A stretch of 64,000 nt of DNA from the NCBI GenBank assembly GCA_964023205.1, contig OZ026841.1:29464399-29528398 (forward strand), written 5' to 3'. Source of the DNA: Lutraria lutraria. Lineage: Eukaryota; Mollusca; Bivalvia; Venerida; Mactridae. Below, piece after piece: positions 8,801 to 40,000 of the stretch. Made by a program: the position numbers and the translations under genes. The notes beneath the pieces were generated by a model, which was not told where the DNA came from, made no database searches, and worked only from the letters and a program-made list of their open reading frames with translations. Position 1 is the first letter of the stretch, and each line of letters begins with the position of its first letter.

Positions 8801-11800
8801 AAATAATAAATCAATGGTCCTTTTTAAGTTTAAAAACTATAACCCTTCATCTTTTTTACGGCCTCTACTTTCTATTGTAAAACCGAAAAAAATGCCAATT
8901 TAGGAATTTATGTTCCGTTTTGTTTCAAATTTACACCACTTTGTTAAAATATTACAAAATTTGTTACTATCACATTGTCTTGGTATTTTATTTTACTTTT
9001 AAGATATATAAAAATAATTAGGCTTAATTGACATCTTCGAAGTCCTTTTTAACTTTTAGACAACTGATCTGTTAATTTAAATAAGAATTAATCGTCTCGG
9101 TAATACTCGGTATTTTCCGTAAGAATACCGAAGATACCGATATCTCTATATACTACTACCACACATTAGGTTCGGTTTTATGTTAAATCTTCAGATCAAC
9201 GCAAATAAATTAATTCTAATATTTATTAAATGAGAAAAGTCGTATTTGTGAAGAAAGGAAGATTATAATTAGAGTATCGTTATTAAACAATTGTTTCATA
9301 TTCTAAATATTTTTTAATGTATATTAGTTAAATTTGAAAACATTTCCTGATATTATTGAACTTACAGTAGTGTACATGAGAACTAAGAAATAAGACAATG
9401 TTACTTTTTATAATGAAATGTTAAACTTGTTGTTGAATGTAACGCTTGACAATTGTGTGAAAAATAGAATAAGTTTAATTCTGTATCTGCTTAATTCTCC
9501 AGGTGATAATTGCACACACAATCGCCTATTAAACAGACTCAATTCAATTTTTGTTGTTGTTGAAAATACGTGATGTAATTATTCAATGTAAATTTTGATT
9601 AAAGTTTTCTAGAGTAATGTGCTCAGTTGTAATAACTTAAGTTACTATTTCTGAATGAAAGTGATGTTTTAAATAAAAAACAATGACAATGGTTAAATAT
9701 TATATATTAAATCCGAGGTACACTGGATCTTTTATGACCCTTAAATTGCTTTATTATCTGTCTCCAATCAGAATGTAGCCTGCGGGTAAAGTAACATCCT
9801 TGCTGTCTGTGTTTTATGGTCAGACTTTCATTGCATAATATTGCAAAATCCATAATTCGTAAAATGTATTTGAGGGAGTAAACTGTAAATTTTCATTTCT
9901 CAAAATCGTTGAAAGGTCATTTATAAAGGAGAAAGGGCTGTTCGGAGTGGATTTTTTTGTTTAAGTTAAGACAAAAAAAATCTTTACACACAAATATCCC
10001 CTATTAACATACATCGGAAAGAATTATTGCAAGCGCGTTTAAAGATTTTTTAAACATTGTCTTTGATAAATGATAAATTAGCAGCGTGTGTAGTGAAAAC
10101 CCAACTATGAAAACAAGAGAAATTGACAGGCCATTTGATGGCATCAATGTAATTTACTGCAGTTGTACACTATCCTATTTTCTTCAACAGTATACCCAAA
10201 ATATGCAGATTGAACGCGATTTTGCGCCCTTTAATGTAATAATCACTATGCCTCTGGGACTTATATAAAGATTGGGGATGTGCTTATATATATAATATCA
10301 CTTTTTACCAACTGCTTTTATGTAAACATGTATATAAGACAATGTACATATATGTAACGGGGAGATGTTTACGAATGCATAGAACTGTGAATGAAGTCTA
10401 TAATCCACAGTAAACTAGATTTTTTTATAAACATGCATACTCATAAACGAAGTATTACAAAACATTCTATTTATTAAATTTTGTGATTTTCAAAATTAAA
10501 TTCTTATATAATTTAAAGCCGCAGTGTACTTGTATAAAAACGAAGAATTAACACTAATATTCTAAACATTTAAGCATTTTTTATGATCATAAGATTTTCA
10601 ACATTTACGTTTTTGTTTAAAGCCACGTACGGTGTATTTATATAAAAATACAGAACAATTTTAATAATTACTGTCTGTGAAATAAAGAAATATTTTGTTC
10701 TATTCGGCTTATGTAAAAAAACTGATACATGCACATTTGTAATTTTCAAGATAACGATAAAAAAATATTTATTTTATAAAAAATCATAACCTTATCAAAA
10801 TTATAAAAACTATATAAAGTTGTTACTTTAAATTAGTCTGCCTGATATCTGGGACCATATATAATGGTCCCAGCTGATATGAAAAGTTTAAATGTTATAG
10901 AACAGAACAGAACAGAACATGATTTTATTTTAGTAACTTATACCAGGGATGCTATATTACATAGCATCCCTGCTTATACATAACATAGTATCTCGTTACA
11001 AACATATATATAAATACAATAAAGTTTTGATCATGTGACATCGTGAAAATTCAAATAGTAGTTCTAAGAAAGACAGATAATTAATGAAAAATAAAAGTTT
11101 ATATATTAAAGAGGTTGAGCTATGCTTAAAATAACATGAATCAAGAAGCATGATTTAGATTTGTAAACTGCAAGTTATTTACGAAAAAAACAACAACAAC
11201 AATAAAACAAACAAAAAAGCATCAACTAGATTTGAATCTGGGTAATGATGTTTACCCAAAATAATGGTTACATCATGTCCACCTAGAAATATTAAGTATC
11301 GACAACGACTGATTGTTTACGTAAAGAAAATGCATGATATGTGAATTTTGCTAGATTAATTATGTCTAATTTTTCAATAGATAGCATGAGTTGAGTGAAT
11401 TTGAAGACACTTGGGCGAACATAATAGTATGGTTTTAAAAATTGCTTACGAATATTAATATATAAAGGACAAATAATAACAAAGTGGTAATCATCTTCGA
11501 TGTCATTTGAATTACATATCAGACAGGTACGTAAATTACGCTCTATTCTTTGATTGTCGTATCTACCAGTTTCTATTCTTAGCTGATGTGATGACAATCT
11601 TAACTGATAGACTAACTGAAATATCGATTAGTCCCGATCCAACAGTAGATGCCTAAGGTCAGATTAGTCACACATGACTGGTTTTATGGTCCTGTATACC
11701 ACGCATGCTTGCAGATAGGCAATAACACAGTACGTGCTCTAATGATGGGTAACTCTGGTGATAATCTGATGACACCCTAAATTGGACTTAATTCCCTTGA

Positions 11801-14800
11801 TTTCCCCGATTTCAAGATGGTCATGAAAGTTGGCCATGACGTATTTTGCATCGCCCTTATCAGCGTTTGGTCACGTAGCGCACAAACTTGACTATCAGGG
11901 TTTTCGGCGTATTTTATGCGATATATTTTTCAAATTTCAAATGAAATGCGGACATTTCACTGGACAAGAAATTAGGACAAATTGTAAACATGTATTGCAA
12001 TTTTACCATCACAAATGCGTTACTACTACTTGTAGATAAATTGATATATTTCCATAGTAAGCTACTGATAATCAAACACAACAATTGCTACATTATGCAT
12101 AATTATTTCACTGATTTATATATTAAAAACAAGTCATGCATGCTGATACATGTACATATTATGTATTGCCAACCTGTTAAACGATATGTAACTAAGCACT
12201 ATTGTAAGTAAAGTAACTAAGCGATTGTACTATCTAAATATATGAATACATGTATACATAATCCACATGGTTAATTCATTTCAAATAATTTACGCAATAC
12301 TTTGTTTTTACTTTTATAACAGTTGGCTTAGTATCAGCGCCACCAGGGACCTGTCCTGGTCACGAACATGTTTGGCCCCTTGGAGAAGGGATTGGAGTTT
12401 TAGATCTAATAACAAACTCAACAATCGGAACTGTTAGCAACGTAAAGTACATTCCAGGCGCGCCAAGTATCGGCGGTTATAACACAATGATGTTTGATGG
12501 TTCACCGACAAGCTTTGCAGATATAGCGGTTCCGCACTATGACGGACAGGCTGATTTGTCTATCTCCCTATACGCGAATTTTAATGACACCGCTAATGGT
12601 ACCATAATGGAATTTAGAAGTGATGTGTATAATGGTAGTCAGTCAACTGATATACAACAATTTCGATTATACTTAGTGGATGGTATGATCGAAATAGAAC
12701 TGAAGGACTTCGGGACGATACCGCAACTTAATATGGCGGTAAACACATTTAATTGGACTTTTCTTGAGCTACAAAGAGACAGGTCAAAAGAAAGTTTTGT
12801 ATTAACGGGTGCTTCTACGACAGCAAAGTTAGCAATTAAAGATTTGTTTATTAATCTACCTGGAACAATTAGACTGGGAGCAGATTTCAGTGGCAATAAC
12901 CCGGTAAATGGCGCAATATCATGCATGTCGTGGTTTCCAGAAAAAACGTCTTGTGATACCAATTCATACTGTTCCACAACTGATTGGTACCCACTTACGG
13001 CCACGACTACTTCTACAACTACGACAACAACGCCTACAACTACGACGGAACCGCCTACAACTACAACAGCACCACCTTCTACTGCGACGGAACCGCCTGC
13101 AACTACGACAGCACCGCCTACAACCACGACAATATCGCCTACAACTACGACGGCACCGTCTACAACTACGACAGCACCGCCTACAACTACGACAGCACCA
13201 CCTACAACTACGACAGCACCACCTACAACTACGACAGCACCGCCTACAGCTACGACAGCACCACCTTCAACTACGACAGCACCACCTACAACTACGACAG
13301 CACCGCCTACAAGTACATTCCTACCCACAACCACTACAACTCTGACGCAGACAACCACAACCGTGGCACCCACAACTTCGACAGCAGGAATAGTCAGAGC
13401 GATGTCATCGGGTAATTTTTCACGAGCCGTGCTATTTATATAATAAATAATTATGCAGTTACACTAAAATTTTAAATAAGATTATGACAGCCAACTACTG
13501 TATTTTTTATTATTTATAATGTACTGATGATGGCATCTTGGTTGATATTTGTGTGTTACCTACTTTTACAAATCTTCCCTGTCTCAGTCCATAAAAAGTG
13601 CCTATTTTGGAAAAGAAATCTAAAAAATGGACGACAAATGATATACAGTGCAACCTCTCCAACGCAACATCCTTCGGGAGTAGCACAACTACAACATTGC
13701 TGAGACGTTGGTGCTCTTTAGAGATTTAATTAATAATTTGATCATGCAATACTGTGTTCTGCTTTAATTTGTTGTTGGTTCTAGGGGAATTTCTAAAACA
13801 AAAAGATGTCCTTTTCCTCAATTTATTTTCTTAAGTATTTTTAATATATTTCTTACCAGAGTCATACAATCTATGACCCTTAAGAGGAAAGGACTTTACG
13901 AAAACAACTTCTACAACAATAATTGACCAATCAATTTCTTTATAATTCACGTGACAGTTAATTTTAACCAATCAAATATAATTTCTTGTTATAAAATTTG
14001 AAATCAGCCGATGAAACAATGTTTATTTCTAACTTAAAGTATTAACTGAAACCCTTTAAGTTCTTGTCAGATCCGCTTAAGGTGACTGATAATATTAAAA
14101 GTTCTTTTATACATTAACTATCGAAAGGTCTGAAAAATAGATAACTAATAAAGTTAAAGCGATTAAATGAGATAGGTAATTTTAGATCTTCCTATCTGTA
14201 TTAATTCTTATGTTACAATTGACCAAAAGTTGCTAGGATGCAAGTTGTTTAATTAGATCTTACTACATACATTTTCTTTAACCCAATTTCTTCTAAAAAT
14301 TATTACAAACAACATCAAACACAATTTAATTAATAAAACAAAAAATCAAAAATTTTAATGCATAATACCACCTCCTCCCCTAAATTTTCTTTATTCCTAT
14401 AAAGAAGAAAGGAGATGACATAAATATATATTTTTTTCTTCTAAGTACAATACCATTGTCATGCTTAAATTGCATATAAGTATTCTATAGAATCCTTTTT
14501 TTATATATATATAACATCATTTATGTATCTACTAAAATAATAAAACAAAAAGAACATATTTACACCAAATCACATAAAATATATAATGCCAATTCATTAC
14601 ACAAAAACTTAAACATATTACAACAATTCACATTTAATATATACTGTTTAGACACAATTCACTTGATAATGTCACCAAAATTAATATTACAATGATCATT
14701 TAATAGATCATATGTCTATTTTCTGTTTTGTTTTTTTCTCAATCAGGTGGTGCTTTACCTGTGTAACTACCGTAAAGCATGAACAACCTTTAATGCCGAA

Positions 14801-19481: not shown

Positions 19482-19733
19482 TTTTTGCTTTGTTTGTTTA
19501 TGTCGAGTTTAACGCCCCTTTTCAGCAGCCAGAGTCATATATGGCAGTTTACCTAAGCGTCATTCCTGGGAAGTACCAGAACTTGACTACCATCCTCTGT
19601 AAGCATCTACCTACTTTCTCACATAAAGAGACATGGTTAGTAGTGAGGATCGAACCCACGAGCCTCTATCAGTGAGAGGTTACAGTGATTTGTAGTCAGC
19701 TACCTTAACCATTCGACCACGGTGGCAGGTCAG
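19482..19733 (-). mobile_element. tRNA-derived SINE, family 1
   Basis: Reads in reverse as an A box (tggtcgaatggttaagg) and a B box (gtgggttcgatcc), then the family body, ending in cttaaacaaacaaagc-like sequence. Full-length copy. Confidence 0.85.
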
Positions 19734-20240: not shown

Positions 20241-20548
20241 ATCTTATCATGCATGAGTGAATATGATATTATAAGATATTTAATTACAATAATGCCTATG
20301 TTTTCCAATTAAAAAACTATACACCTTCTCCATCACTGTTCTGTATAATTACCACAATAACCATCTGAATGATATAACCTTTTATAAATAGAATGATGAA
20401 AGCTCAGTCTTTTTATCATCACGTCTTTGTATAATGCAAATTTGCACATGTACAGTACTTGTAACCTCTCTCTAGTCTAAGCATACAGAACACAGTACTA
20501 AAGATATAAGAATCATACCAAAGTATAGTGTGACTTTATTAACCTGTC

Positions 20549-20580
20549 CAGGGATGCTATATTGTAATATAGCATCCCTG
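20549..20580. mobile_element. 32-bp palindromic micro-element in a MITE
   Basis: 15-bp perfect arms CAGGGATGCTATATT with a 2-nt centre. Flanks are ACCTGTC at 20542-20548 and 20581-20587. The related MITE at 33540 has a single uninterrupted target. Confidence 0.9.
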
Positions 20581-20636
20581 ACCTGTCAAAGCTGAATAAT
20601 TACAAGGTTGTTGTATGCGATTATTTTTAGCTTCGT

Positions 20637-20666
20637 CGGGGATGCTATTGTAATATAGCATCCCTT
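20637..20666. mobile_element. 30-bp palindromic micro-element in the same MITE
   Basis: CGGGGATGCTATTG and its near-inverse. Flanks are GCTTCGT (20630-20636) and GCTACGT (20667-20673). The duplicated copy keeps perfect GCTTCGT flanks. Confidence 0.88.
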
Positions 20667-22227
20667 GCTACGTACCACAGTCGATAGTTTTCGTTTATTT
20701 TACCGTTATGAAATGTTCCAATCAATGTGTTGATATAACGGTAAAACGAAAATTATCGTGTAACTTACGAAAGTAATCGAACCTCACCGAAGCTAAACAT
20801 AAATGCAATCATTGACCGTGTAATTATGCAGGTTTGACAGTTTAATAAAATCGCACTATACCAAAATTAAAATATTGAATACTGTAAGTGACCTTTTAAA
20901 TTTTCATAACCAAATATACATAGAAGTGGAAGGGAGATAAATCAGAAAAAAATATTTTCAGTATTTTTAATCAGGCACAGTTTTTCTCTCTTCTTACGTA
21001 AATATATTTTGTTTATATTTTCTGTGAAAAACGAATGGGGCATGGTTGAATTCAGCAACACTGCTTGCATTGTTTAACTGTGGAATAAAATATAAGAGAC
21101 CATCAGTTCTATCCACCCATGAAGTTTTATGTTGCTACCTATAGCTTTTATAGTTTTTGAGTTATGAGCTAAGTGTTTGCACAACACGGATGCATTTGCA
21201 GTGATTCTTCTAAAAACAGACAAGCTCAAAAATAAAATGTCAACGATATAGTTTATTGTTTCATAATTTTATTTCATTCATTCATTAATAAATATTTGTA
21301 AATAAATATGTTCATATCACAGATCAGTTTTGGATGAAAGTTTCACAAAATCAGCAAATCACAAAATGATGAAAATCTTACATCATCATACTGAATGTTA
21401 TAGAACACATTGAATTAAATCTACATGCTTATTTAATAGTTTGTTGGCTTTAAGTTTTAACAGTGATAATGATTTTGAGAGATAATTTGCATTACTTTTA
21501 TTGTTTTTACAGAAATGGAATAAATTATTTCTTTACACAATTTGATTACATTTTTGTATCAAGAGTATAATATCCAATGTACTTAATCAGGCATTAAACA
21601 TAAATGATACTAAAGTCTGGACATACAATTGCAAAAATATCAGAAAACACTACAATTCAATCCAAGGATATTTCACTTGGTATGACCACAGGTAACCATA
21701 GTTACCATGGGTAATGTTTGCTGGGAATACCAATTGCATTTTGATAACATGAAATTTCTTATTAGAAAAGATTTGGTCCAGTAAGACGTGTATAACTGAA
21801 AATGAGCGTGTTTTAAATATGAGTACACCAGGTGAACGTTGTTTTGCAAATCAGGGAAAGACCCTGTGTATCATAGATACAGTCCTAGAACAAGAGATTG
21901 TTTATTGTTACATGTAATATAGTGTCCCTGTTTTTATTAAATAGATACATGTAATTGCTCATTTGTGTGATATATTCAATGCTGTACTAATTTTTGGACT
22001 TTATCCGGAGGAGTGGACGGAAGGTGTTATTATACCTAAATATAGAATATAGAATCCGGTAGCTAGATGGCATAGGCCGAGAAGTATACCTTGTGAAGAT
22101 CAGATTTGTATTGCAATTGAAAAAGAATATCATTTCAATTTGAACGTTCAATGTTTACAAACATATTAAGGAAACAACATATTACAGATCTTTTTGGATC
22201 CACCCCAGCCTGTTTAACAAAAGCAGC

Positions 22228-22931: not shown

Positions 22932-23288
22932 TCAATGATCTCGTTTGTGAATTATCTACCCTTGAATTTGATTTTCTTATATCTTATCATGCATGAGTGA
23001 ATATAATATTATAAGATATTTAATTACAATAATGCCTATGTTTTCCAATTAAAAAACTATACAACTTCTCCATCACTGTTCTGTATAATTACCACAATAA
23101 CCATCTGAATGATATAACCTTTTATAAATAGAATGATGAAAGCTCAGTCTTTTTATCATCACGTCTTTGTATAATGCAAATTTGCACATGTACAGTACTT
23201 GTAACTTCTCTCTAGTCTAAGCATACAGAACACAGTACTAAAGATATAAGAATCATACCAAAGTATAGTGTGACTTTATTAACCTGTC

Positions 23289-23320
23289 CAGGGATGCTAT
23301 ATTGTAATATAGCATCCCTG
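23289..23320. mobile_element. 32-bp palindromic micro-element (copy B)
   Basis: Same as 20549-20580, flanked by ACCTGTC twice. Confidence 0.9.
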
Positions 23321-23376
23321 ACCTGTCAAAGCTGAATAATTACACGGTTGTTGTATGCGATTATTTTTAGCTTCGT

Positions 23377-23406
23377 CGGGGATGCTATTGTAATATAGCA
23401 TCCCTG
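23377..23406. mobile_element. 30-bp palindromic micro-element (copy B)
   Basis: Same as 20637-20666, with perfect 7-bp flanks GCTTCGT at 23370-23376 and 23407-23413. Confidence 0.9.
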
Positions 23407-24802
23407 GCTTCGTACCACAGTCGATAGTTTTCGTTTATTTTACCGTTATGAAATGTTCCAATCAATGTGTTGATGTAACGGTAAAACGAAAATTATCGTG
23501 TAACTTACGAAAGTAATCGAACCTCACCGAAGCTAAACATAGATGCAATCATTGACCGTGTAATTATGCAGGTTTGACAGTTTAATAAAATCGCACTATA
23601 CCAAAATTAAAATATTGAATACTGGAAGTGAGCTTTTAAATTTTCATAACCAAATATACATAGAAGTGGAATGGAGATAAATCAGAAAAAATATTTTCAG
23701 TATTTTTAATCAGGCACAGTTTTTCTCTCTTCTTACGTAAATATATTTTGTTTATATTTTCTGTGAAAATGAATGGGGCATGTTTGAATTCAGCAACACT
23801 GCTTGCATTGTTTAACTGTGGAATAAAATATAAGAGAACATAAGTTCTATCCACCAATGAAGTTTTATGTTGTTACCTATAGCTTTTATAGTTTTTGAGT
23901 TATGAGCTAAGTGTTTGCACAACACAGATGCATTTGCAGTGATTCTTCTAAAAACAGACAAGCTCAAAAATAAAATGTCAACAATATAGTTTATTGTTTC
24001 ATAATTTTATTTCATTCATTCATTAATAAATATTTGTAAATAAATATATTTATATCACAGATCAGTTTTGGATGAAAGTTTCACAAAATCAGCATATCAC
24101 AAAATGATGAAAATCTTACATCATCACACTGAATGTTATAGAACACATTGAATTAAATCTACATGCTTATTTAATAGTTTGTTGGCTTTAAGTTTTAACA
24201 GTGATAATGATTTTGAGAGATAATTTACATTACTTTTATTGTTTTTACAGAAATGGAATATATTATTTCTGTACACAATTTGATTATATTTTTGTATCAA
24301 GAGTATAATATCCAATGTACTTAATCAGGCATTAAACATGAATGATACTAAAGTCTGGACATACAACTGCAAAAATATCAGAAAACACTACACTTCAGGA
24401 CTGTAGAATTATTTCTTAAACATTTAATATAGGGTAGACTGTTAACTTTTTATGTTGAGTTTGTTAATAGATTTGCAAGATACATAATGTAGTCTAAGGA
24501 AGAAGACACTTGACAAAGGCAAAACTAAATCTTTCCGAGTTTGGTATAAAAATTTGGCTAGGACACAGAGTAAAAAGATTGGCCATAATGTAAAATAAAT
24601 AATAAAATAACAATTACCTAAACAAAGGATTAATGTTTTTCGATGTTCTACATGTTTAAATGGAGTCATTCATTAATCACAAACTTCAAAGCGTCCAAGG
24701 ATGTGCACTTGTTAAATTCAATGAAATTCACTAGACATAGAATGGCCTTTTTCATCTTTGAACATACATTTGTAGATCACTGTTACATTGACCATGGATG
24801 TT

Positions 24803-25089: not shown

Positions 25090-28000
25090 CTGAAAAAATG
25101 ACATACAAATAATCATGAGATTTCTTTCAATCAAAGATAATTACAAATTGAAACCAATGAAGATGTGTATGGAACTAACGACCAACAACAGATGTGTTTT
25201 TCTAATTTATATCAACATAATTACAGTGAGGTGTAAGTCGAAAATTTTGAACCAATTTCAGATGAAATTCATAATGGAGTAATTGAGACAAACTTTGAGA
25301 CTGACTCTGAATGACTAGATGGACAGACTGAACAAAGATGTCAACAATATATGAGAAAATATTTTTAAACATATGGGATCAGAGATGTTTCAAGGGAATC
25401 TCCCTACCAAACTAGAGCATGTCATAGACTAATACCCCCATATGCCACCTTGACACAGATGTGTTGATATTATTTTTGCCACTTGCCACTAACAATAAAG
25501 AAAGTGGATTCCTTTCATTCAATGAACAACTGAGATGCAGCCTAGACAAAGCAAACTCAATATATGACCTTTGATTTTAAAATTTGACAATTGACCATGG
25601 AGGTAAAGCCTGGTTCTTAAGCACAACACACTGTCTCATGTAGGGGAACAATCATGCCAAGTTGTTTTGAAATCATTCAGTAAAGCTCTCAGAATGAAAT
25701 AGGATGCAACATGATGGAAAAGGACGGAACATGATATTTTACATATATTTCCAATATAGCCCCCATCACTGATATAGGATGGGGTTATAATATTTTATTT
25801 AATACATGAACATGTTATTTATCAAATTAAATCGCTTGTTACAGTGATAAGAAATCTACACCAAACTCTGGATACACGATCATGGTCCATTTTTTGGAAA
25901 ATTTTGTTTTATAAGTAGGATAAAGCTAGCTCACCTAAAATTAATTGTTATAAAGAGAGTTAAAGTCTTACAATTTTTTGAAACCCCATATTTGTAAACC
26001 ACATGTTAAAACCTAAAAACAGATACGGACATTCTTCCATTTGAAATGATTTGGCATAATGATATGCGGTAAGCTAGTTTCATGAAATATTCAATGAATG
26101 TAAAATCCGAAAAACAATACCTTTCATATTTGTTTTCAATTTATGAGAATTTTCTGCTAGTGTACAATGCCACTGATTTCCTAGGTAGCATTTTATTCCA
26201 GACAAACTTGACAGCATGGCTGATTCTACAGGTTTCTCTAAATGTAACACCTTAGAACTGAAAATAAAGAATTTAATGTAAATAGTAAACAGTTAATGCA
26301 AAACAAGACTTTGTTTATATTTAAATGCTGATGTATCATGCTATCAAGTGACGTCACAATGATATGATGGACCCATAATTGTGACCAAAACTCACCAAAA
26401 AACATGTCAAATCAAATAAACTTTATTTTGTTACAAATACATTTATCTTTTAACAGAGACAAAGAAAATATTATCAATGTCTCAGCTTTTAAGTTTTCAA
26501 ATTTTAATTATTGTGCTTCCACAGATCTTCTCTATTTTTGTAAGATATCAAGAGCATTACACTTACTGTGATTTTGTTAATGTAGTAAGAAGTCAGACCC
26601 TAAAGGTTATATTAAGGAGATTTCATTTAATATCATTTTTATAAAACCAATCCCTACCTCTTGAGAACATCAATCTTGGACTGTCTGGTGAAACTTTGTG
26701 TTGTTTGTGCCAAGTCCAATGAATACACAAGCATGCAGTCTAAAAATATATCATTAATAGACAAATAGGTGAATTAAACTGTCTGAATCTTTATTTTCCA
26801 ATAATCAGAGAATCCAAACTTTTAGGAGAGTACAAATAAGTATTGACCCACCTCCGTGGTCGAGCGGTCAAGGTCGCTAACTTCAAATCACTTTAACCTC
26901 TCACTGATAGAGGGTCGTGGGTTTGAGCCAAGCTACCGACCATATCTCTTTATGTTAAAAAGTAGGTAGTTGCTTACTGAGGATGGGAGCCTAGTACTGG
27001 TTCTTCCCAAGAAATGATGCTAAGGTGAACTGTCTGTCTCATATGACTCTTGACTGTTGAAAAGGGGCGTAAAACTTGATATAAACAAACAAGCAAACAA
27101 GTATCACCTAATCCTAATACACTGCAATCACATGTCTTTCTACCATGTGAAAAACACTGACCAACTCCAAATTTATTAATTCATGTTTTAGGTCTTAGGT
27201 CAGCAAAAATAATACAGTCTTAATGTGCAGAAGGCCAATGATGCAGAGGTGTGTCAGGTCTATATCATCAATATGAGGTAAAGAGGCTGTTTTTCACATA
27301 TAGTGGCAAGTATTAACAAGTGAACTTTAGCACAATGTCATGTTTGACTGTATTATAGAATTATTGACGCAGTGTATTTAGACTTAACAAATGGAAAGAA
27401 TTAAACATTGCTATTTTACCCCAATGTTCTCTTAAAACAACCTAATGTGTGATTAACACCACACTATGGATCATGTGAAGTATGTGTTCTCTAAACATGA
27501 TATGGTCTCCCAAGAAAGTTTTACTGTATAATAAAAAACAGTGAACACATGAAATCTACAAATATCTCAATTACCAACTACAGTTAGCAGCCACCTCTAA
27601 ATAGAGGCAACCCTGTGGATACAGGTCATTATTTTAAAACCTGTCTTTGATTATTTACAACAAAATGACCTCCAAATAAAGGTCACCTGTCAATTTACTT
27701 GTTCAATCCCAAGGGTGGCCTTTATTCACAGGTTTGACTGCGTATGTAGAAAGAATCACAGAGCGTGCATGATTCTACAACAATCAGACAAACCAATGAC
27801 TGGACTAACAAAATTGTTTACATTATCATAAAGCCAAGCTTACCTGGTATGTTGAGTGCCGACATTTTAGACGGAGGAATGTATGACAATAAACGTTCCA
27901 TACCATAGAAGATAAATGCACTGTTCTCTAAGAAATATACTTCCCATTCACCAACACTGGAAATAAAAAATTCAAATTAGTATTACATGCATGAAGGTAA

Positions 28001-31000
28001 CCGACATTAGACAAAATCTATACAACTTCTATAACCAACAGTTAATCTCATAATGACTTAAAATAACATCAGTAATTGTCAATTCTAAGTTCAATGTCAT
28101 ATGTCAAAATGTTTTACCTGACCATGCAGAGGAAGTGATCAGAAATCAATAGGACATTTGGAAGACGGGATGAACTAATTCATCGAGGTAACATGAGGCA
28201 AACTTTCCCATATACATTTTTGCCAGTCAAATTATTACAGCCTTGATGATTTTGTTTCAGAAGTCTAAAAGGCATTTTTTAAATTATGTATCGCTTATAG
28301 TCACCTTAGAATTAGAAGGGCCTATCTTGCTCTTTCATACTTGCCAGATAGGCCCTTTTGCAAAAAGGTACATTTATAGGTTATATAAGGTAGGGGTTTC
28401 ATCATACCAGTATTCCAGGACTGTAAACTTACCTTTTCACAAGGAGCTGGCAACATCTCCACATATGGAGAAAACTCAACATTTTTATCATATTTTCCTA
28501 GACCTGCCGCAACCAAAGATTTGAAAAATCTGGGTGAACACTTCATAATAAGATAAGCTAACATTTTATAAAAAAGTAAAACATTTGATTCAATATAATA
28601 TAAAGTGATGACAAATTAATCAAGTATACCTAGGAGCATGTTCATCTCCAGTAACACCAAGCCAACGTGGTGTAAATTGCTGTTCGTAGTCCTCCAGTAT
28701 CTTATTAAACACTTCTATTGGTTTGTTCTCCTCTGAAATGATCAAAGAAATCAGTAGTAAGATCCTATAATTATATTGTTTCAATCTGTAGATCTCCAGC
28801 TACATGTACCATGAAGCATATGTTCTTAATGAATTAGTGAATTAAATGCTTCCCAAAATATCATCAACAGTTACTAATCATTAGACAATCAATCCAAGAA
28901 AGGTCAGTCAGTCAGTCAGTCAGTCAGTCAGTCAGTCAGTCAGTCAGTCAGTCAGTCAGTCAGTCAGTCAGTCAGTCAGTCAGTCAGTCAGTCAGTCAGT
29001 CAGTCAGTCAGTCAGTCCGTCCGTCCGTCCGTCGATTGGTCTGTCCGTCATTCATTCAGTCAATCAATCATTAGATCATTCAATCAATCAGGAAGAATTT
29101 TTGTATTAAAGCAATAATATTAAGTCTGTGAAAAAGTGTTGAAAGATTGTCAGTAATCAAAAAGATATAATTTGAGGGTTCAGTGCAACAGTGTCGTAAC
29201 TCATATTGAAATCAGAACAAGTTACTACAGTGTTGGGCTGAACCCTCGAATATATAAAATGTATCACTAATTACAATTTATTAAACATTATTGTTAATAG
29301 ATTCAGACATAATAAAGGATAATTTACCTGTTTCTGCACAGTCTAGATGAGGATCCACAATAACTAACCACAGTTAAAGAAAATTTAAACAGAACAATAA
29401 AATTTTTACTAGTATCAGTAATATACATTTTCCCTCAGTGAGTTTGTCATCAACACTTTCTGAGTCTTGTTTTATTAATAGTATTGTATAAAAATGTTTG
29501 GCATGTCTAAAAAATTTATAGTAAATAAGAACGAAGGCAACTTTAGAAAGGGTGGGGCCTGTATTTATCCCCTGTTAATATGGTCAAATATATACATGTC
29601 AAATTCCACAAGTCTGTCCAAGGGATTTAATACATGTATATCGAGGGTTGAGCGCAACAGTGTTGTAACTCATATTGAAATAAGAACAAGTTATGACAGT
29701 TTTGCGCTTAGCCCTCGATATGTAGAATCAAAATGCTATTTAAGATAAAAATAATAATAATCATCTTGAATTTTACCTTATACTTCCAGAAAATGACAAA
29801 AGACAAACTTAATACAAATTTATGGTTTATTACACCATGGAAAACAGAATTCTGTGTACAACCCGAAGCTATACACAGAAAAGTATTCAAGAAGACTAAA
29901 AAGGATACACCTGAAGTTCATAGTATCTACAGGTACACTCCATCCAGCCAAAGGTCTATTCAGTGGTATCTAAAATAAGCAAAAATGAAACTAAAATACC
30001 AAGTACCAAAGTCATTATGAAAATTCAGAACAACATCAAGTTTATTTGCATTAAAAGTTATGATTTATAAGTTAATTTTACGGTGGCATAAGAGGACTAA
30101 TGAAATATTTTATTCATTACATGCACACTTGATAATAATTGACCAATGAAACTTGTCGTAATAGTTATGCGCACATAGCAGCTACATGTATCGCGTGCTA
30201 CACTTAGTAGCTATTGTATGCACATGTAATACATTGTAAAATATTTCCTATGTCCTCTTTATGCCACTGTATAGATTTAATCAAGATAGGTAGATAAGAT
30301 ACAGGAGAACCCAGCATTTATATCCCTACTCTATATTATTAGTTTTTTGCAGTTCTTTATCATGCCTGGTGTAAAGCATAAATACACAATACACCCTTTT
30401 TCATGTGCCAGTTGAGACGGGGACACTAATAATTGGTCACTGAGAAATTCAAAAGGAATAGTTGATGATCATCCCCACAACCTTTCATTCAGTAGTCCAG
30501 CATGTTACCAATCAACCATATTGAATTCACATACATGTAGTTTGTTATTGTTCAAATCTGTATTGACAATCAGTTGATTTTCTATGTATTTAATTGATAT
30601 TGAATTTTAATTAAGTGTGTGACTGATTAAGAACCAGCCAAAGATTCTCCTATACCGTATCTCCCTATCCCAGACCCCTCTCTCTGTCTTGGGCAACTCT
30701 GAAATGACCATGTCCAGGGATTATAAAACTCCAAATTGGTTGAAGTGTTTAAGATACATCCAAAATAATATCTTACAATTTTCGCCATCTTCTTGCTAGC
30801 ATCTCTTAATCCTGGAATTCTAGAGAATGGCTGATCACCTCCCTTGGACTTGGCCTTCTTTGCTGTTGCATCAGCAGTCTCTGTTAATAGAAATAATTAT
30901 TATTTAAAAGCAAATAAAAAAAAAATTATCATGTAGATGATTGCATTTCATGTAAAACATCTGATACTCTCTGATGCTTGACTTTTTGACTTCGAAACTT

Positions 31001-34000
31001 CAGATAAAGTCCTTTTGACAATCATTACACTGTCCTCAAAAGACTTATATAGTTTTTACCAATATTTTTCAAGATAATATCAGTACCAACTTTCAATACA
31101 TGAATCACTAATTGTAAAATATATATTAACATGCATGAATCTAATAATTCATAATTAATATTCATAGTTGATATTCATGATTAAAATAATTGTTCTACAA
31201 ACATTATACCCCCGTCACACCAGACTCGCATCCGTATTGCATCCTAAACTGTCAAACTGAGGAGAATGCCAATGGTCGCATTAAGAATGCCAATGGTCGC
31301 ATTAAGAATGCCAATGGTCGCATTGAGAATGCCAATGGTCGCATTGAGAATGCCAATGGTCGCATTAAGAATGCCAATGGTCGTATTAAGAATGCCAATG
31401 GTCGCATTGAGAATGCCAATGGTCGTATTAAGAATGCCAATGGTCGCATTGAGAATGCCAATGGTCGTATTAAGAATGCCAATGGTCGCATTAAGAATGC
31501 CAATGGTCGTATTAAGAATGCCAATGGTCGCATTGAGAATGCCAATGGTCGCATTAAGAATGCCAATGGTTGCATTAAGAATGCCAATGGGCGCATTGAG
31601 AATGCCAATGGTCGTATTAAGAATGCCAATGGTCGCATTAAGAATGCCAATGGTCGTATTAAGAATGCCAATGGTCGCATTAAGAATGCCAATGGTCGTA
31701 TTAAGAATGCCAATGGTCGTATTAAGAATGCCAATGGTCGCATTGAGAATGCCAATGGTCGCATTGAGAATGCCAATGATTTTTCTGTTGAGTCAGTACA
31801 CTGCTTCCCTATGGCATCCTTTGAGTTCCTACCATATTGTAATGGTAACTATGGTGACTTCAGTGTGATCACACAGCATCCTGAGTCAAGACGCCAAACC
31901 TTGGCGTTTACTTTGGACTTTGCGTCCTTCTCTTGTGTTCTCAATATGACCCCACAGCATACAAGGTGTCCCTGTCGCATCCTGGGCCACTGTAGGGATG
32001 CAGCAAGGATGCTAGTCCAGTGTGATAGGGGTATCAATTAATGTAAATATTGATATGAATAATGTCTTTTAAATGTATGTAAAGTACTGACAGAACAATC
32101 AAATGAATAAATCATATTAAATGGCTGGACTTTTTATACAGATACAAATTTGTAAAAAGATGATCCAAGAGCAGTCCACCAAATGCAACAAAAATATCTG
32201 ATTTCATAGCCGTAAATTTTATTGCTTTTCATGAACTTTTGAGAATCATTTTTGCTTGGTGCATGGATTGAGTTTTATTTGAAAACAAATTTCTATGACA
32301 GAAATACATCCTTTATCAAGTTTTTTATTTAGTGACTGAGATGGGGTATTTTGAAGTCAATTCTCAAAATTACTTATGGCCCTATACATCATTGGTGCTG
32401 CCCCTTATTTGACTTCATAAGGAAAGCAATTGCTTGAGTAATATAAAATGGGAAAAGAGTAAACAGTTGATACAGCCTGTACATTTACTACAGGAAAAGT
32501 TAATGCGGTAAACCACATACATGTACAAACAAAACAACATAGTAAGAATATTTATCAAGCTACAACAAAACTACAAGATCTACCACACATTTCTACTATG
32601 ATACAAATGCTACATTTTCAACTTAAACTTTGGCTAGTACATACTCATGATAATTCATTCAAAATCTATTTTAGATAACAAAATGCATTTTGATTCAAAA
32701 ATGCAGTCAAACCTTTGTTTGGAGGCCACTTTCAAATAAAGACTGTTCTGTGAATAAAGGTTGTTCTTTTTAAAAAACCCTCATTGATTATTTCGAACAA
32801 AATGACCTCCTTATAAAGGTCATCTGTCAATAAAGGCCATATTATGTCTTACACAAGGGTGGCTTTTGTCCACATGTTTGACTGTATATATGAATGAAGT
32901 TATATGTATAAGCACTGGCTCCTGTGTACCAATAAACAATAGTAAAAAAACACAGGCATTGATACACAAACACAGGATTCACATATTTGCCTATAGTATC
33001 AGCCTCTATCATTTTAATATCAGTGAAAATACATATTCATGTACTGTCTAACATGGGTGTATATTCATCTTTAGCTAGCGCTGTGTGCTTATAATGTATG
33101 CCACTAATCAGATACCCCTTTTCTCTCTAATCAAAGGTCTGCAATTGATTTTGATTTGATATTTTATCATGGAAATGCAGCCAATGCATTGGTTAGTTTT
33201 TTTACTTGTTTAGTTACAAGATTTTTCCCCCAGTATTTCATTGTATTGGATAATCAATACATCAATGCATTTTGTTTAGCAATAAAAATTCATGTTATTT
33301 ATCATACATGTAACATAGAACTATATTTGTTATGACACTCATGCACATTAAATGGTAGATATAAATGGACCAGTCAATGTTATACACAAAAAGGGGTCTC
33401 AGAGAACATACATTAGGGGCCAACATATAATCACATGCAGACTACAAAACTACTTCATCATACTAACCTTGACCTTCAGCTGTGTGGAATAATATGAAAA
33501 CATGCCATGAATTTATAATATACACATAATTCTAACTGCTATAGTGCGATTTTATTAAACTGTCAAACCTACATAATTATACGGTCAATGATTACATTTA
33601 TGTTAAGCTTCGGTGAGGTTCGATTACTTTCGTAAGTTATACGATAATTTTCGTTTAACTGTTATATCAACATATTGATTAGAACATTCCATAACCGTAA
33701 ATTAAACGAAAACTATCGACTGTAATTCGAAGCTTAAAATAATCACATCCAACCACCGTGTAATTATTCAGCTTTGACAGGTTAATAAAATCGCACTATA
33801 CTAATCAATAGGTGAAAAATAGGTGTTTGTGTCTAGTTACCCGACCTACTCAAATTTTCCGCTGCAACCCTGGACTTTTTATTCGGTCCGTTGAACAACA
33901 TCTGAACACCCATTTTCTCACCTTTTTATCTTGCCACATGCTTTCATCAGCCCCCAAAACAAACAGCCCCAAACTACTTATTCTATCTTTAATATAGGGC

Positions 34001-37000
34001 CATGTCACATAGAAAATAACATTAAACAAAACAAGAGGGCCATGATGGCCCTATAAATGCTCACCAGGAGAAAAGGTCATTTGGAGATGAACATTGTTGA
34101 AGTTTTCTATACGAGTCCAAGTAAGATCAAGTGACCCATCTTGGCAGTTTTTTTATCCCATGGCCATTATATGAACAGATTTAAAAGAGGTCCATTAGAC
34201 AAAGCTAGATATTAAATATCTTAGCTATAGGCTTTGTGGTTTCGGAGAAGAAGATTTTTCAAATTTTCCTATATAAAATAGAATAAACCCCAGGGCAGGG
34301 CCAATTTTAACCCCGGGGCCACAATTTGAACAAACTTGGTAGAGGTCCACTAGACAATGCCACATACAAAATATCTAAGCTCTAGGCCTTGCGGTTTCGG
34401 AGAAGAAGATTTTGTTAATTTTCCTATATAAGTCTATATAAATCAAGTGACCCCCGGGGCGGGGCCAATTTTGACCCTAGGGCAATAATTTGAACAAACT
34501 TGGTAGAGGTCCACTACACAATGCTACATGCCAAATATCTTAGCTCTAGGCCTCGTGGTTTCGGAGAAGAAGATTTTTTTAATTTTCCTATATAAAATAG
34601 AATAAACCCCAGGGCAGGGCCAATTTTAACCCCGGGGCCACAATTTGAACAAACTTGGTAGAGGTCCACTAGACAATGCCACATACAAAATATCTAAGCT
34701 CTAGGCCTTGCGGTTTCGGAGAAGAAGATTTTGTTAATTTTCCTATATAAGTCTATATAAATCAAGTGACCCCCGGGGCGGGGCCAATTTTGACCCTAGG
34801 GCAATAATTTGAACAAACTTGGTAGAGGTCCACTACACAATGCTACATGCCAAATATCTTAGCTCTAGGCCTCGTGGTTTCGGAGAAGAAGATTTTTTTA
34901 ATTTTCCTATATAAAATAGAATAAACCCCAGGGCAGGGCCAATTTTGACCCCTGGGCTATAATTTGAACAAACTTGGTAGAGGTCCACTAGACAATGCCA
35001 CATACAAAATATCTAAGCTCTAGGCCTTGCGGTTTTGGAGAAGAAGATTTTTTAAATTTTCCTACATAAGTCTATATAAATCAAGTGACCCCCGGGGCGG
35101 GGCCAATTTTGACCCTAGGGCAATAATTTGAACAAACTTGGTAGAGGTCCACTAGACAATGCTACATGCCAAATATCTTAGCTCTAGGCCTTGTGGTTTC
35201 GGAGGAGAAGATTTTTTTAATTTTCCTATATAAAATAGAATAAATCCCAGGACAGGGCCAATTTTGACCCCAGGGCCATTATTTGAACAAACTTGGTAGA
35301 GGTCCACTAGACAATGCCACATACAAAATATCTAATTTCTAGGCTTTGCGGTTTTGGAGAAGAAGATTTTTTAAATTTTCCTATATAAGTCTATATAAAT
35401 CAAGTGACCCCCGGGGCGGGCCAATTTTGACCCTAGGGCAATAAATTGAACAAACTTGGTAGAGGTTCACTAGACTATGCTACACACCAAATATCAAAGC
35501 TCTAGGCATTGTAGTTTTTGACAAGAAGATTTTTTAAATTTTCTATATAAGTCTATGTAAAATCAAGTTACCCCCAGGGCGGAGCCAATTTTGACCCCAG
35601 GGGAATAATTTGAACAAACTTTGTAGAGTTCCATTAGACAATGCTATATACCAAATATCTCAGCTCTAGGCCCTGTGGTTTCGGACAAGATTTTTTAAGT
35701 TTTTTCTATTTGTTGCCATAGCAACCAGAGTTTTTAATGAAATTTAATTTTTTGAACAACTTTGAAAGGGGACCACCCAAGGATCATTCCAGCAAAGTTG
35801 CAATCGGCATAGCGGTGTAGGAGGAGATGTTGTTTTAAGTAATTATGGACGCCACTTCAAGACGAACGACGCACGATGGACGCAGGGCGATCACAAAAGC
35901 TCACCTTGAGCACATTCGTGCTCTGGTGAGCTAAAAATAGTATTTCATATTTATAGACGAGGGGTGGAATTCTTGAAAAACGCTTTTTTTTGTAACAAGG
36001 TATTTCATTGGTCAGGGAAACAGGTAGGGTCCAATCAAATTGCTCAAAACAAAGTTGCATGCCAAGACAAAATCATTTGCTGGTAAATAAACCTGTCTGA
36101 GCGGATTTTGATATTTAACTCGCTACACAATCAGTAATTGACCAGTGATATAATGTTTGTTGCAGGTAAATATATTTTTTTGTCAATCATTGTATGCACC
36201 ATTAATTTTATGCAGGCGATCCTCTTGTCTAGCAATATAGCATGTTTTCCTCGGTTATGCGCTCATGCATAACACACTTTTTAGAAAAATACCCTAAGGT
36301 CAGTTGAAAGGGTAAATAATTGTCATCAAATGGATATATATATATATATCAGTATTCATTGTGGGTTGTTTCTACATTTAAATAGAACCAATATTCTGAT
36401 AATTTCTACAAATTTTCATTTGCTGGGATTTCTGCCCCTTGTCTATTAATATGAAATAATCTTTTTTTTGTTCTTTTCTATGTGACATGGTCCTATGATC
36501 TTAAATGCCTGAGCATGTAACCAGAAACAAACATATGTTTGTACCATATCTATACCAAAACGTACTGTCTCTGTGTCTCATAAAATTTCACTACAGATAT
36601 TTAAAATCAACATACTGGTACTAGATATATAAAGCAGGCCATATAAAAATGTAAATATATGAAGCATTTATATTGATGCACATGTAGTACATTCCATTAC
36701 CTGGCATTCAAAAAAGCCTAAAAACAGCCACCATTTTCAGAAGCAAAACAAAGCCAACTTTTTATTTTTCAGACATCAAAAAGCTGAACTAGGCAATCAA
36801 TTAATACTTTAATCATAACTTGCAACTTTATTTTGGTCAGCATCACTGAAGCCAAAGTTCATAGCAATGCAAATCTATCGAATTTAACATTTAGTCATAC
36901 TTGTGAACAAAGGCCACAGACAGAAAAAGGGACAGAATGATGACCCTTATATGAACAGTTGATCATTAGTAAAAGGATAATTAGTTAAATTATTGAATAG

Positions 37001-40000
37001 ATGCATGCCAAAAGAGTAGACAATGTTCACAAGATGACCTGTATTCATAGTTTTAAAGTAACACTAAAATCTTCAGACCTTGTTTCACAATTTCTTTTTC
37101 ATTTACAATTTTTTAGTCTGACCGTGCACCTTTATTGATTTTTAAAAATCAAGCAAAACTGATCTTTAGACATATCAAACTAGTTTATGTAGGCTATATC
37201 GAGGGTTCAGCGCAACAGTGTTGTAACTCATATTGAAATAAGAACAAGTTACAACAGTGTTGCGCTGAGCCCTCGATATATTGAGTTACATACAAGCACT
37301 TTTCATAATGCATTAGTACACCAACAAGATATTGTGACAACTTCAGAAAGTCTTGAATAAGAGATGTTATTTTGAGAAACTGAGGCTTTCATTGCATTGC
37401 ATAAAACTAGCCACAAAATAATCCACAAACCTTCAGCAACATCTTGATGGAGTCTATGATAAAACAGCTGTAGAGAGAAATCTCTGCTCAAGGACACGAT
37501 ACTTTCCACCTGGAACACTTTAAGGGCCTCCAGTGGTAAATCCATGAGATCAGAGTCAGCTAAGAGTACAGCATACTCCTGAGCTGATGGCGGGGCTTCC
37601 TTTGGTTCCCGGCCTGGTTTTTCTGTTACACTTGTGGAAGGGCTTGGGATAGGAGGTCTGTAATAATAAGATAAATCACATAAGCATTACAAGGCTTAGA
37701 GAAAACTTGTTGAGACTATCAGCATAATGAAAATCTAAATACACACTTTTCAGTTATATACCTAACAAGTCTTCCTGGAAGATATTCCAACCAGTACTGA
37801 CTAATCCTACCACAAGGAACCGGCAACTTCTCCACACATGGAGGAAAAATTACATTGTTGTCAAAGTTTCTGAGAAGGTTATGAATTGCCATGACTAGAA
37901 ATCAAACCCGGTATATCCAGCAAACTTACCACTGGAACACGGTAATTTCAAACATTTTGCCTATAAAATGTCAGCAGGTTATAAAATAAACTTTGCTACA
38001 ATAGGGCTTGGAATAGACCAAATGAAGTCAAAGACTTACACTAAAATTCCATCAAATTGTGTTGTAATTGGTTTAAGGTACATTTCTACAGCCATTACAA
38101 GATCACGGAATTCGTCCTGTAACATTCTTTCTTCTTTCTCATTCTCATTAACGTTAGCCTGGAAATAACATATAAATTGTTTAATGCTAGAAGAATACAG
38201 ATAAAAAGTTTAACAATAAATACAAGACAAATTAAGTAAGGTTAGGATTACTAATAAAATCATTTCTTTATGTCTTAAACCAGTTCTTCAGTACATTTTA
38301 TTCAGATGAGCAAAATTTATTGTTTCAGGTAGAAATGAATTATCTACCCTTAGTCATTTTTAGTAGCTTAATTTTTATGTGGAAAAGTATTGACTACGTC
38401 CAATGAACAGCTAAAACAGGGAAATTTAAACACACAACAAAAGAAGCAAAACTTAGTAAATGTACCAAAACTAAGCATAATTTAACCCAAAGGAGGAATA
38501 AGATGCAAAACATTATAAACATGGAATATATAACACAAGCATATAAACTCCTCATTTGCATCAGAGTAAACATTGTTATAATAAGAACATGTTAAGCTTA
38601 AATTAATAAGACTGTTGCTTGTCTGAGCTAATGAAAAACAAGTAAAATTGTCATTTACATACAAATATTGCCATTTCTTAAAATGAGAAGTAAATCAATT
38701 GAATATCATGCTTATTGACAACCAAGTCCAAAAGCTTATGGTGCACACTGAATAACAGAAAAAAGTTAATGTTTAAAAAATTCAACATGCTTATGCCATG
38801 AAGCTTAAGATAAAATCATGCTAAATGATTGACTTGTAGATATTAGAAATAAAAAGCAAGTAACAGAAACAGAACGTGAGTAAAGGCAAAAAAGGTGCAA
38901 TTACACTTTAGCCAATTTAAGTTAGACTACTTTTGCTTTAACCCACAATTTAAAGAGAGTTTTAAAAGAAAAAACCAGGCTTTGATGCAACAATGAACCA
39001 ACACAAACTTATTGATACAACCTTTCCTTCCCATTTTTTCTGTGTAACACAATAATATTATTGTAATAATATTAACACATTGTTTTGAATTTGCCGTTTT
39101 TTAAACCAAATATTCCATTAATAAATATTGGTACATGTAGTTTATTTTAGTGCTTACCATAAAAATTCTGTCGATTTATATATGTCATTTAATTGATAAA
39201 TAATTGATACTATTTATAGCATTACAAGAGTTTCTAAATATAGATTTCTTGTAATGCAAAATGACTTCCAAGAATCCTGAATTTCCCATAATGCAATTTC
39301 ATATCACTTCATTTTCCAAAGAGACTCTGATCAACTCAGTTGAACAAATGACACAATATTTTAAAGAACCAGTCTAGCAATTAAATAAGAATAGATAAGC
39401 ATAAAATTAATTAGAACGAAATGTAGGTCATGAATATTGTTTGATCTATAAACATAACTTAGTTTGCATCTGAAGAACATGAAAACAGTATATACACACA
39501 GCAGTATCAAAACTTTATAACAGAATATAAACATGTACTGGTACACTGAGTTACTAACATTATAGAGTTTTAACTAAATATCTGAAGACAGCGCAAGTGT
39601 CGTAGTAATTAAATATACTGAAACATCTTCATTTTACAAGCTTAACTAGAACTATCACTAAAGATGATGAATACCCCCAGATGCGGCCTTGACACAGTCA
39701 TTGTAACATTTTACAGAGGGAAATATAATGCATTTTTATTTTTTATACCTGCAAATTGTTGCTCATATATCCTGACCAGTTTTTAAATATCCATTATATA
39801 AAAAATAACAAAGGGCCATAACTCATTAAAATTTACTTGGACAAAACCTATTGTGGACATGCACAACTTGGTAAACTACTTATCACTTCTAAGAAGTTTC
39901 ACAGGATTCCTGCATGTAGTTGCTGAGAAATGGTTTGGACAAAATTTACCTATTGTGTAAAACAAAGGGCCATAACTCAGTGAAAATTTAACCAACCAAG

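Follow-up and report, generated by a model that had tools for sequence, protein, structure and literature searches.

The 29-bp palindrome at 10944-10972 of the 64-kb stretch of Lutraria lutraria DNA analysed here (the window), together with the hundreds of similar palindromes elsewhere in the genome, very probably represents the scars left when breaks were closed by end joining after excision of a P-like transposon, whose cut would be staggered by 18 nt. This larger element, a DNA transposon of the cut-and-paste type, would have inserted, duplicating 7 bp of target, and would later have departed. Its transposase, presumably of the P superfamily, would make a staggered cut leaving 3′ overhangs: one strand would be cut at the border of the element and its complement some 18 nt further in, within a 30-bp terminal inverted repeat (TIR), and the broken donor ends would retain 18 nt of each TIR. 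The cell would then join both ends, with a few nucleotides trimmed from one or both of them and filler sometimes added, to give the target, up to 18 nt of TIR, up to 18 nt reversed, and the target again. The evidence consists of the insertions themselves, empty sites, parent elements with like ends, the length of the target site duplication (TSD), a target motif, the 18-nt limit on the arms and the variable centre of the palindromes.

The window contains several such palindromes (Table 1). The bracketing of the 29-bp palindrome by an exact CTTATAC was confirmed by the sequence. The original prediction listed two further copies, at 20549 and 20637, and gave both exact 7-bp flanks; this is correct for the first (ACCTGTC), while the second has one mismatch (GCTTCGT/GCTACGT). 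The list missed the palindromes at 23289-23320 and 23377-23406, as well as a palindrome of a second family at 10849-10873. Because the scars at 23289 and 23377 sit in a tandem duplicate, offset by about 2,740 bp, of the stretch with those at 20549 and 20637, the main family is represented in the window by three independent events. The proposed three independent insertions with 7-bp duplications remain after removal of the duplicate pair.

Table 1 Palindromes, target duplications and an empty host-repeat copy in the window.
Feature	Position	Strand	Remark
Left target duplication CTTATAC	10937-10943		Sequence read
29-bp scar CAGGGATGCTATATTACATAGCATCCCTG	10944-10972		Arms 18 + 12 nt from the two TIRs, with 1 nt in common
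Right target duplication CTTATAC, exact	10973-10979		Sequence read
Left target duplication ACCTGTC	20542-20548		
32-bp scar	20549-20580		Arms 15 + 18 nt, 1 nt shared
Right target duplication ACCTGTC, exact	20581-20587		
Left target duplication GCTTCGT	20630-20636		
30-bp scar	20637-20666		Arms 12 + 18 nt, outer bases mutated (CGGG...CCTT)
Right target duplication GCTACGT	20667-20673		One mismatch
Duplicate of the 20549 scar	23289-23320		Exact ACCTGTC flanks 23282-23288 and 23321-23327
Duplicate of the 20637 scar	23377-23406		Exact GCTTCGT flanks 23370-23376 and 23407-23413
Second-family palindrome CTGGGACCATATATAATGGTCCCAG	10849-10873		Exact CTGATAT flanks 10842-10848 and 10874-10880, inside a dispersed repeat
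Third host-repeat copy of the 20.5/23.3-kb scars, empty for both	33537-33790	minus	Single ACCTGTC 33776-33782, single GCTTCG ~33728-33733

Palindromes flanked by an exact 7-bp repeat number five in the window, two of them going back to one event, compared with none in each of eight order-2 Markov shuffles, and matches to the arm with at most two mismatches number 15 against 3.5 expected. The window gave no Rfam match at the gathering threshold, and nine of its open reading frames (ORFs) gave no Pfam match.

Other repeats share the window. Four copies exist of a short, foldback-like repeat whose ends read roughly CGAGGGTTCAGCGCAACAGTG (29168-29257, 29637-29726, 37195-37284 and 60386-60475; 78-100% of the reference). 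A dispersed repeat with direct and inverted copies (19563-19732, 26844-27013, 43136-43236 and 46027-46232) gives the impression of being tRNA-SINE-like. There are tandem arrays at 31158-31892, 12929-13428 and 34101-35707, two made of 21-bp units and one of alternating 155/164-bp units, and the 21-bp array at 12.9 kb sits within a threonine-rich open frame.

The repeat that hosts the 20.5- and 23.3-kb scars has its third copy on the minus strand (33.5-33.9 kb). This copy is free of both palindromes and contains each target once. Compared with the scarred copies after removal of the palindrome and one target copy, it shows 2-5 mismatches per 40 positions, versus 15-16 when both target copies are kept. 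A similar case is offered by a palindrome of another end family, CAAGGAC (L108 4465-4504, TSD TCAATAT), which lies inside a 2.86-kb element described below: the 10 other fetched copies of that element are empty at this position, nine with 0-1 and one with 4 mismatches per 41.

Searches of the assembly containing the window (728.5 Mb, 71 contigs) with the pattern GGGATGCTATN{1,20}ATAGCATCCC returned 551 matches, and a reversed-pattern control returned none. We took all 50 distinct places among the matches listed, which come from contigs C1 and C3 only. Their 7-bp flanks are exact in 38, have one mismatch in six and are worse in six, three of the latter (L020, L029 and L030) being copies of one larger repeat. 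At other lengths, exact repeats occur in 1/50 copies at 5 bp and in 0/50 at 4, 6 and 8-12 bp. The adjacent 7-mers had been expected to match far more often than chance, and they do: 44/50 copies have 0-1 mismatch, against 253 of 10,000 trials in which left and right flanks from different copies were re-paired. When the 50 fetched and five window copies were grouped by alike flanks, the 55 copies fell into 45 groups, taken as independent events; the best TSD per group is exact in 39, has one mismatch in three and is worse in three. Independent insertion with 7-bp duplication is therefore supported among the copies examined, for 42 of 45 events at 0-1 mismatch, window included. The same arms were found in four viral and 14 bacterial or archaeal stretches of the prokaryote and viral collections. 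With 13 alternative boundaries tried, none of these 18 showed 7-bp flanks agreeing to within one mismatch, so we rejected them as relatives and take them as unrelated hairpins.

Some palindromes have clearly been carried along inside larger repeats. Six flank groups hold 2-4 copies each among the 55 main-family copies examined. The second family, searched with the pattern CTGGGACCATN{1,20}ATGGTCCCAG, returned 151 genome matches (control 0), a count inflated by copies carried inside repeats: of 20 fetched, 13 (L118-L130, on C1, C3 and C4) lie in one dispersed repeat and have poor 7-bp flanks (2-3 mismatches). All 13 contain a 36-bp CTGGGACC palindrome, which differs by one base in L125 and is the same in the other 12. 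L133 and L134 belong to a second repeat with exact flanks, common to the copy at 10849 of the window, and the palindrome there is a passenger in a dispersed repeat. The five independent copies among the 20 have 0, 1, 1, 1 and 3 mismatches. It is nevertheless almost inconceivable that such passive spread, with the 7-bp flanks simply part of the repeat, accounts for the palindromes as a whole: the 55 main-family copies fall into 45 flank groups, an exact TSD being present in 39 of the groups, empty sites exist, and unlike flanks refute passive copying for most main-family copies examined. The original prediction had recognized that placement of all copies inside one larger repeat would count against it. 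This is the case for part of the main family and not for most of it, and for the 13 second-family copies that share one repeat.

When the arm was searched without its palindrome partner, ends CAGGGATGCTATATTACAGGGATG/A were found in inverted pairs about 2.86 kb apart. We fetched eight of about 12 such pairs among the matches listed. The original prediction had proposed looking for a longer autonomous element; these elements of 2.83-2.87 kb are longer elements with the ends of the palindrome, and all eight display exact, mutually different 7-bp repeats and the TIR CAGGGATGCTATATTACAGGGATRYGCAAC. The TIR of the parent element is 30 bp long, with the first 23 bp identical at both ends followed by two variable bases and GCAAC, and beyond the scar arm it continues for 12 more bases, which read GGGATRYGCAAC. 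The TIR of the Drosophila P element is similar in length at about 31 bp and begins with CA. A ninth parent pair, from two overlapping loci, is flanked on each side by ATCTGTA. In the eight fetched copies the interior contains no long ORF, the longest open stretch being 130 codons, and the 2.86-kb parent is a non-autonomous element.

The search brought to light no autonomous copy with such ends: the parents lack a long ORF, and the fetched P-type transposase loci contain none of the end sequences tested or show no clear TIR. Three end pairs 5.6-7.2 kb apart were fetched as candidates for an autonomous parent and rejected, as they are the 2.86-kb element carrying insertions; two of the three keep matching TSDs, and L108 has no match. 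Copies with CAGGGATGCTATATTACAGAACAG were considered as a 187-bp element and rejected since their flanks are shared; they are read as an old scar within a dispersed repeat together with a short tandem expansion.

To define the limits of the scars we measured their arms against the parent TIR at 51 sites with distinct 25-nt flanks, five of them in the window and some of them diverged copies of one event. The TSD has no mismatch in 40, one in seven, and two, three, four and seven in one each. At the 47 sites with 0-1 TSD mismatch, the longer arm measures 18 nt in 40, 19 nt in two, 16 nt in one and 14 nt in four; counted over the 42 independent events with 0-1 mismatch (of 45), it is 18 nt in 37, 19 in two, 16 in one and 14 in two, the 19-nt arms being ambiguous by one shared base. 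The shorter arm ranges from 12 to 18 nt, with a lower bound fixed by the search pattern, which demanded 12 nt per arm, so that scars with shorter arms were mostly missed; one of these, L073, has an 8-nt arm and an exact TSD. Across 47 copies (repeats not thinned), the join shows a 1-2-nt overlap of the arms 23 times, a blunt junction 11 times and 1-11 nt of filler between them 13 times. A single-base overlap is often expected by chance and carries no weight.

The palindromes at the sites examined are 26-43 bp long with a variable centre. Genome-wide, centres of 21-50 nt are found in only 40 matches, against 551 with 1-20 nt, even though the TIR of the parent extends beyond the arm. Some of these 40 are nested scars that have exact 7-bp repeats of their own (C10:5127449 and C16:19305216, read by eye). 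The sites thus have the anatomy of P-type scars, with both TSD copies kept, TIR remnants no longer than the cut and a variable join. A variable centre and one arm stopping at 18 nt are expected if each palindrome was made in place at the departure of the element.

This anatomy bears on two other origins. The original prediction suggested that two terminal repeats joined head to head can themselves be mobilised, which would make the palindrome a micro-MITE moved as a unit in trans. The 551 copies and their 7-bp TSDs would suit such a unit, as would the recurrence of the 36-bp and 29-bp centre forms at different sites; the 36-bp form (18+18) is present at independent flanks in seven of the 51 sites. 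Like MITEs, the palindromes have inverted ends and target duplications, and the 2.86-kb parent is itself non-autonomous, but they have no common interior from one progenitor: the centres vary by site and are asymmetric, and one arm ends at 18 nt. Parents with like ends and a like target motif exist as well. The Drosophila P transposase reportedly requires internal P DNA (by the title of a work cited in a review), and the palindromes have no comparable interior. We therefore consider a mobile palindrome improbable, and the claim that the 29-bp unit is itself mobilised was not supported. The other option offered there, aberrant transposition products, comes nearest in wording, although the palindromes look like the ordinary end-joined result of long-stagger excision. 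Alternatively, they could be very short internally deleted elements from interrupted gap repair. One copy, L069, resembles the outcome of that process: it is an internally deleted element of 131 bp with a TSD, the full left end and 16 nt of the right. Such deletion would be expected to leave variable and often long ends, whereas the arms stop at 18 nt and the sizes are sharply limited, which makes this origin very improbable for the palindromes.

Several points count against the end-joining interpretation. The parents found are non-autonomous, the cut is placed at 18 nt and not at the 17 of P, the 36-bp form at independent flanks also fits a mobile palindrome, and 6/50 copies lack a good TSD.

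The target motif links scars and parents. Outside the TSD, T at position -3 is found in 70/78 half-sites of 39 scar targets (background T 0.33), in 18/20 half-sites of 10 parent targets and in 13/16 half-sites of eight insertions of other families, and the motif is TNN[RTTWAAY]NNA. Scars and parents share this target motif and probably one insertion machinery.

The other families were found by scanning for palindromes with flanking repeats. A lenient scan of 138,478 bases of the fetched genome DNA returned five with an exact 7-bp repeat, in the families CAAGGAC, CAGAGAC and CTGGGACC, and at other repeat lengths eight at 5 bp, two at 6, none at 8 and 9 and one at 10. A stricter scan of 309,768 bases returned three further palindromes with 7-bp repeats, one with a 4-bp repeat and none at 5, 6 or 8-11, and two order-3 shuffles gave none at every length. 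An element of 1,220 bp (L033 74-1293) has the TIR CAGGTAGTTGTAT and an exact 7-bp TSD, TTGATAG; its ends hold GCAAC near positions 24-30, like the CAGGGATG parent. It is conceivable, if rather unlikely, that a transposase outside the known P lineage with an 18-nt stagger serves several end families (CAGGGATG, CAAGGAC, CAGAGAC, CTGGGACC and CAGGTAG), which have 7-bp duplications and T at -3 in common; by extrapolation, scars would then number in the thousands.

Studies of Drosophila P provide the closest comparison. P transposase leaves 17-nt 3′ TIR tails on the donor ends, and the fly junctions consist of the 8-bp target, at most 17 nt of TIR, microhomology or filler, at most 17 nt reversed, and the target (PMC2895639, Table 1). 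By our hand count of the rows, 16 or 17 nt are retained on one or both sides in 40/66 isolates, and no row is printed with more (PMC2895639). A further class, 20/66 junctions, lost nearly all of the TIR via longer microhomology (PMC2895639), and scars of this class would be invisible in the present search. Both sets keep both TSDs and TIR up to the length of the cut, with microhomology, blunt or filler joins. They differ in that P has 17 nt and an 8-bp TSD, as opposed to 18 nt and 7 bp here, and in that the fly junctions come from a repair-deficient laboratory stock, while here there are hundreds of natural copies in one genome.

According to the part of PMC7776569 used here, the 17-nt stagger sets P apart from other characterised cut-and-paste elements. 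The scar arms point to a similarly long stagger, of 18 nt in 37/42 events and not 17. The 7- or 8-bp TSD and palindromic motif of the P superfamily are also present, with 8/8 parents and 38/50 palindromes having 7 bp, and 0/50 palindromes 8 bp. Galileo, a member of the P superfamily in Drosophila, has a 7-bp TSD and a palindromic target motif reaching beyond it, as described in the portion of PMC4168063 consulted. Galileo has long foldback-like TIRs, and its motif is GTANTAC with AANGT/ACNTT, in contrast to TNN[RTTWAAY]NNA here; the portion consulted mentions no such scars. Dada has a similar TSD of 6-7 bp, as far as the relevant excerpt of PMC3706591 goes, but Dada-U6 lacks TIRs and the targets of Dada are small RNA genes, whereas TIRs are clear in the elements here and their target is AT-rich and dispersed. 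The window has no Rfam match and the 39 scar targets are unlike one another, so nothing there points to insertion into multicopy genes for small RNAs.

The genome does encode P-type transposases. PF21788 (GTP-binding domain) has 14 genome matches, including frames of 907 and 937 aa, and the three ORFs examined carry all three TNP-like domains (PF21787/21788/21789). From the 14 we fetched C6:16358222, C12:15533929, C3:5450864 and C16:17049452, plus two flanking stretches of a fifth at C14. The CAGGGATGCTAT end is absent from L110 and L111. A clear TIR accompanied by a 6-9-bp repeat was sought in L110, L111, L116 and L117 and not detected. These transposases were not linked to the ends, and the placement of the parent in the P superfamily is thus an inference from geometry.

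The transposase loci have a structure of their own. The 907-aa P-type ORF (L110 1118-3838) faces a 383-aa ORF at 5753-4605, the 937-aa P-type ORF (L111 5372-2562) faces a 383-aa ORF at 500-1648, and neither 383-aa ORF has a Pfam match. Between the C12 and C14 copies, comparison of flanking stretches of 2.7 kb and 3.2 kb gave identities of 98% and 100%; the unit exceeds 11 kb and includes a tandem array of ~203 bp.

We found no genome-wide description of such scars in the open-licence literature, judged by titles and the beginnings of abstracts of the records listed. If our interpretation is right, a single assembly would suffice to read how an uncharacterised transposase cuts, and the hundreds of scars would provide, for a non-model animal, a natural sampling of end joining in the germline. 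A target duplication around a very short palindrome would then not necessarily mark a mobile unit, since the palindrome may be a scar, and counts of intact copies would overlook elements that have already departed. The genome would then record past departures of elements and how the resulting breaks were mended.
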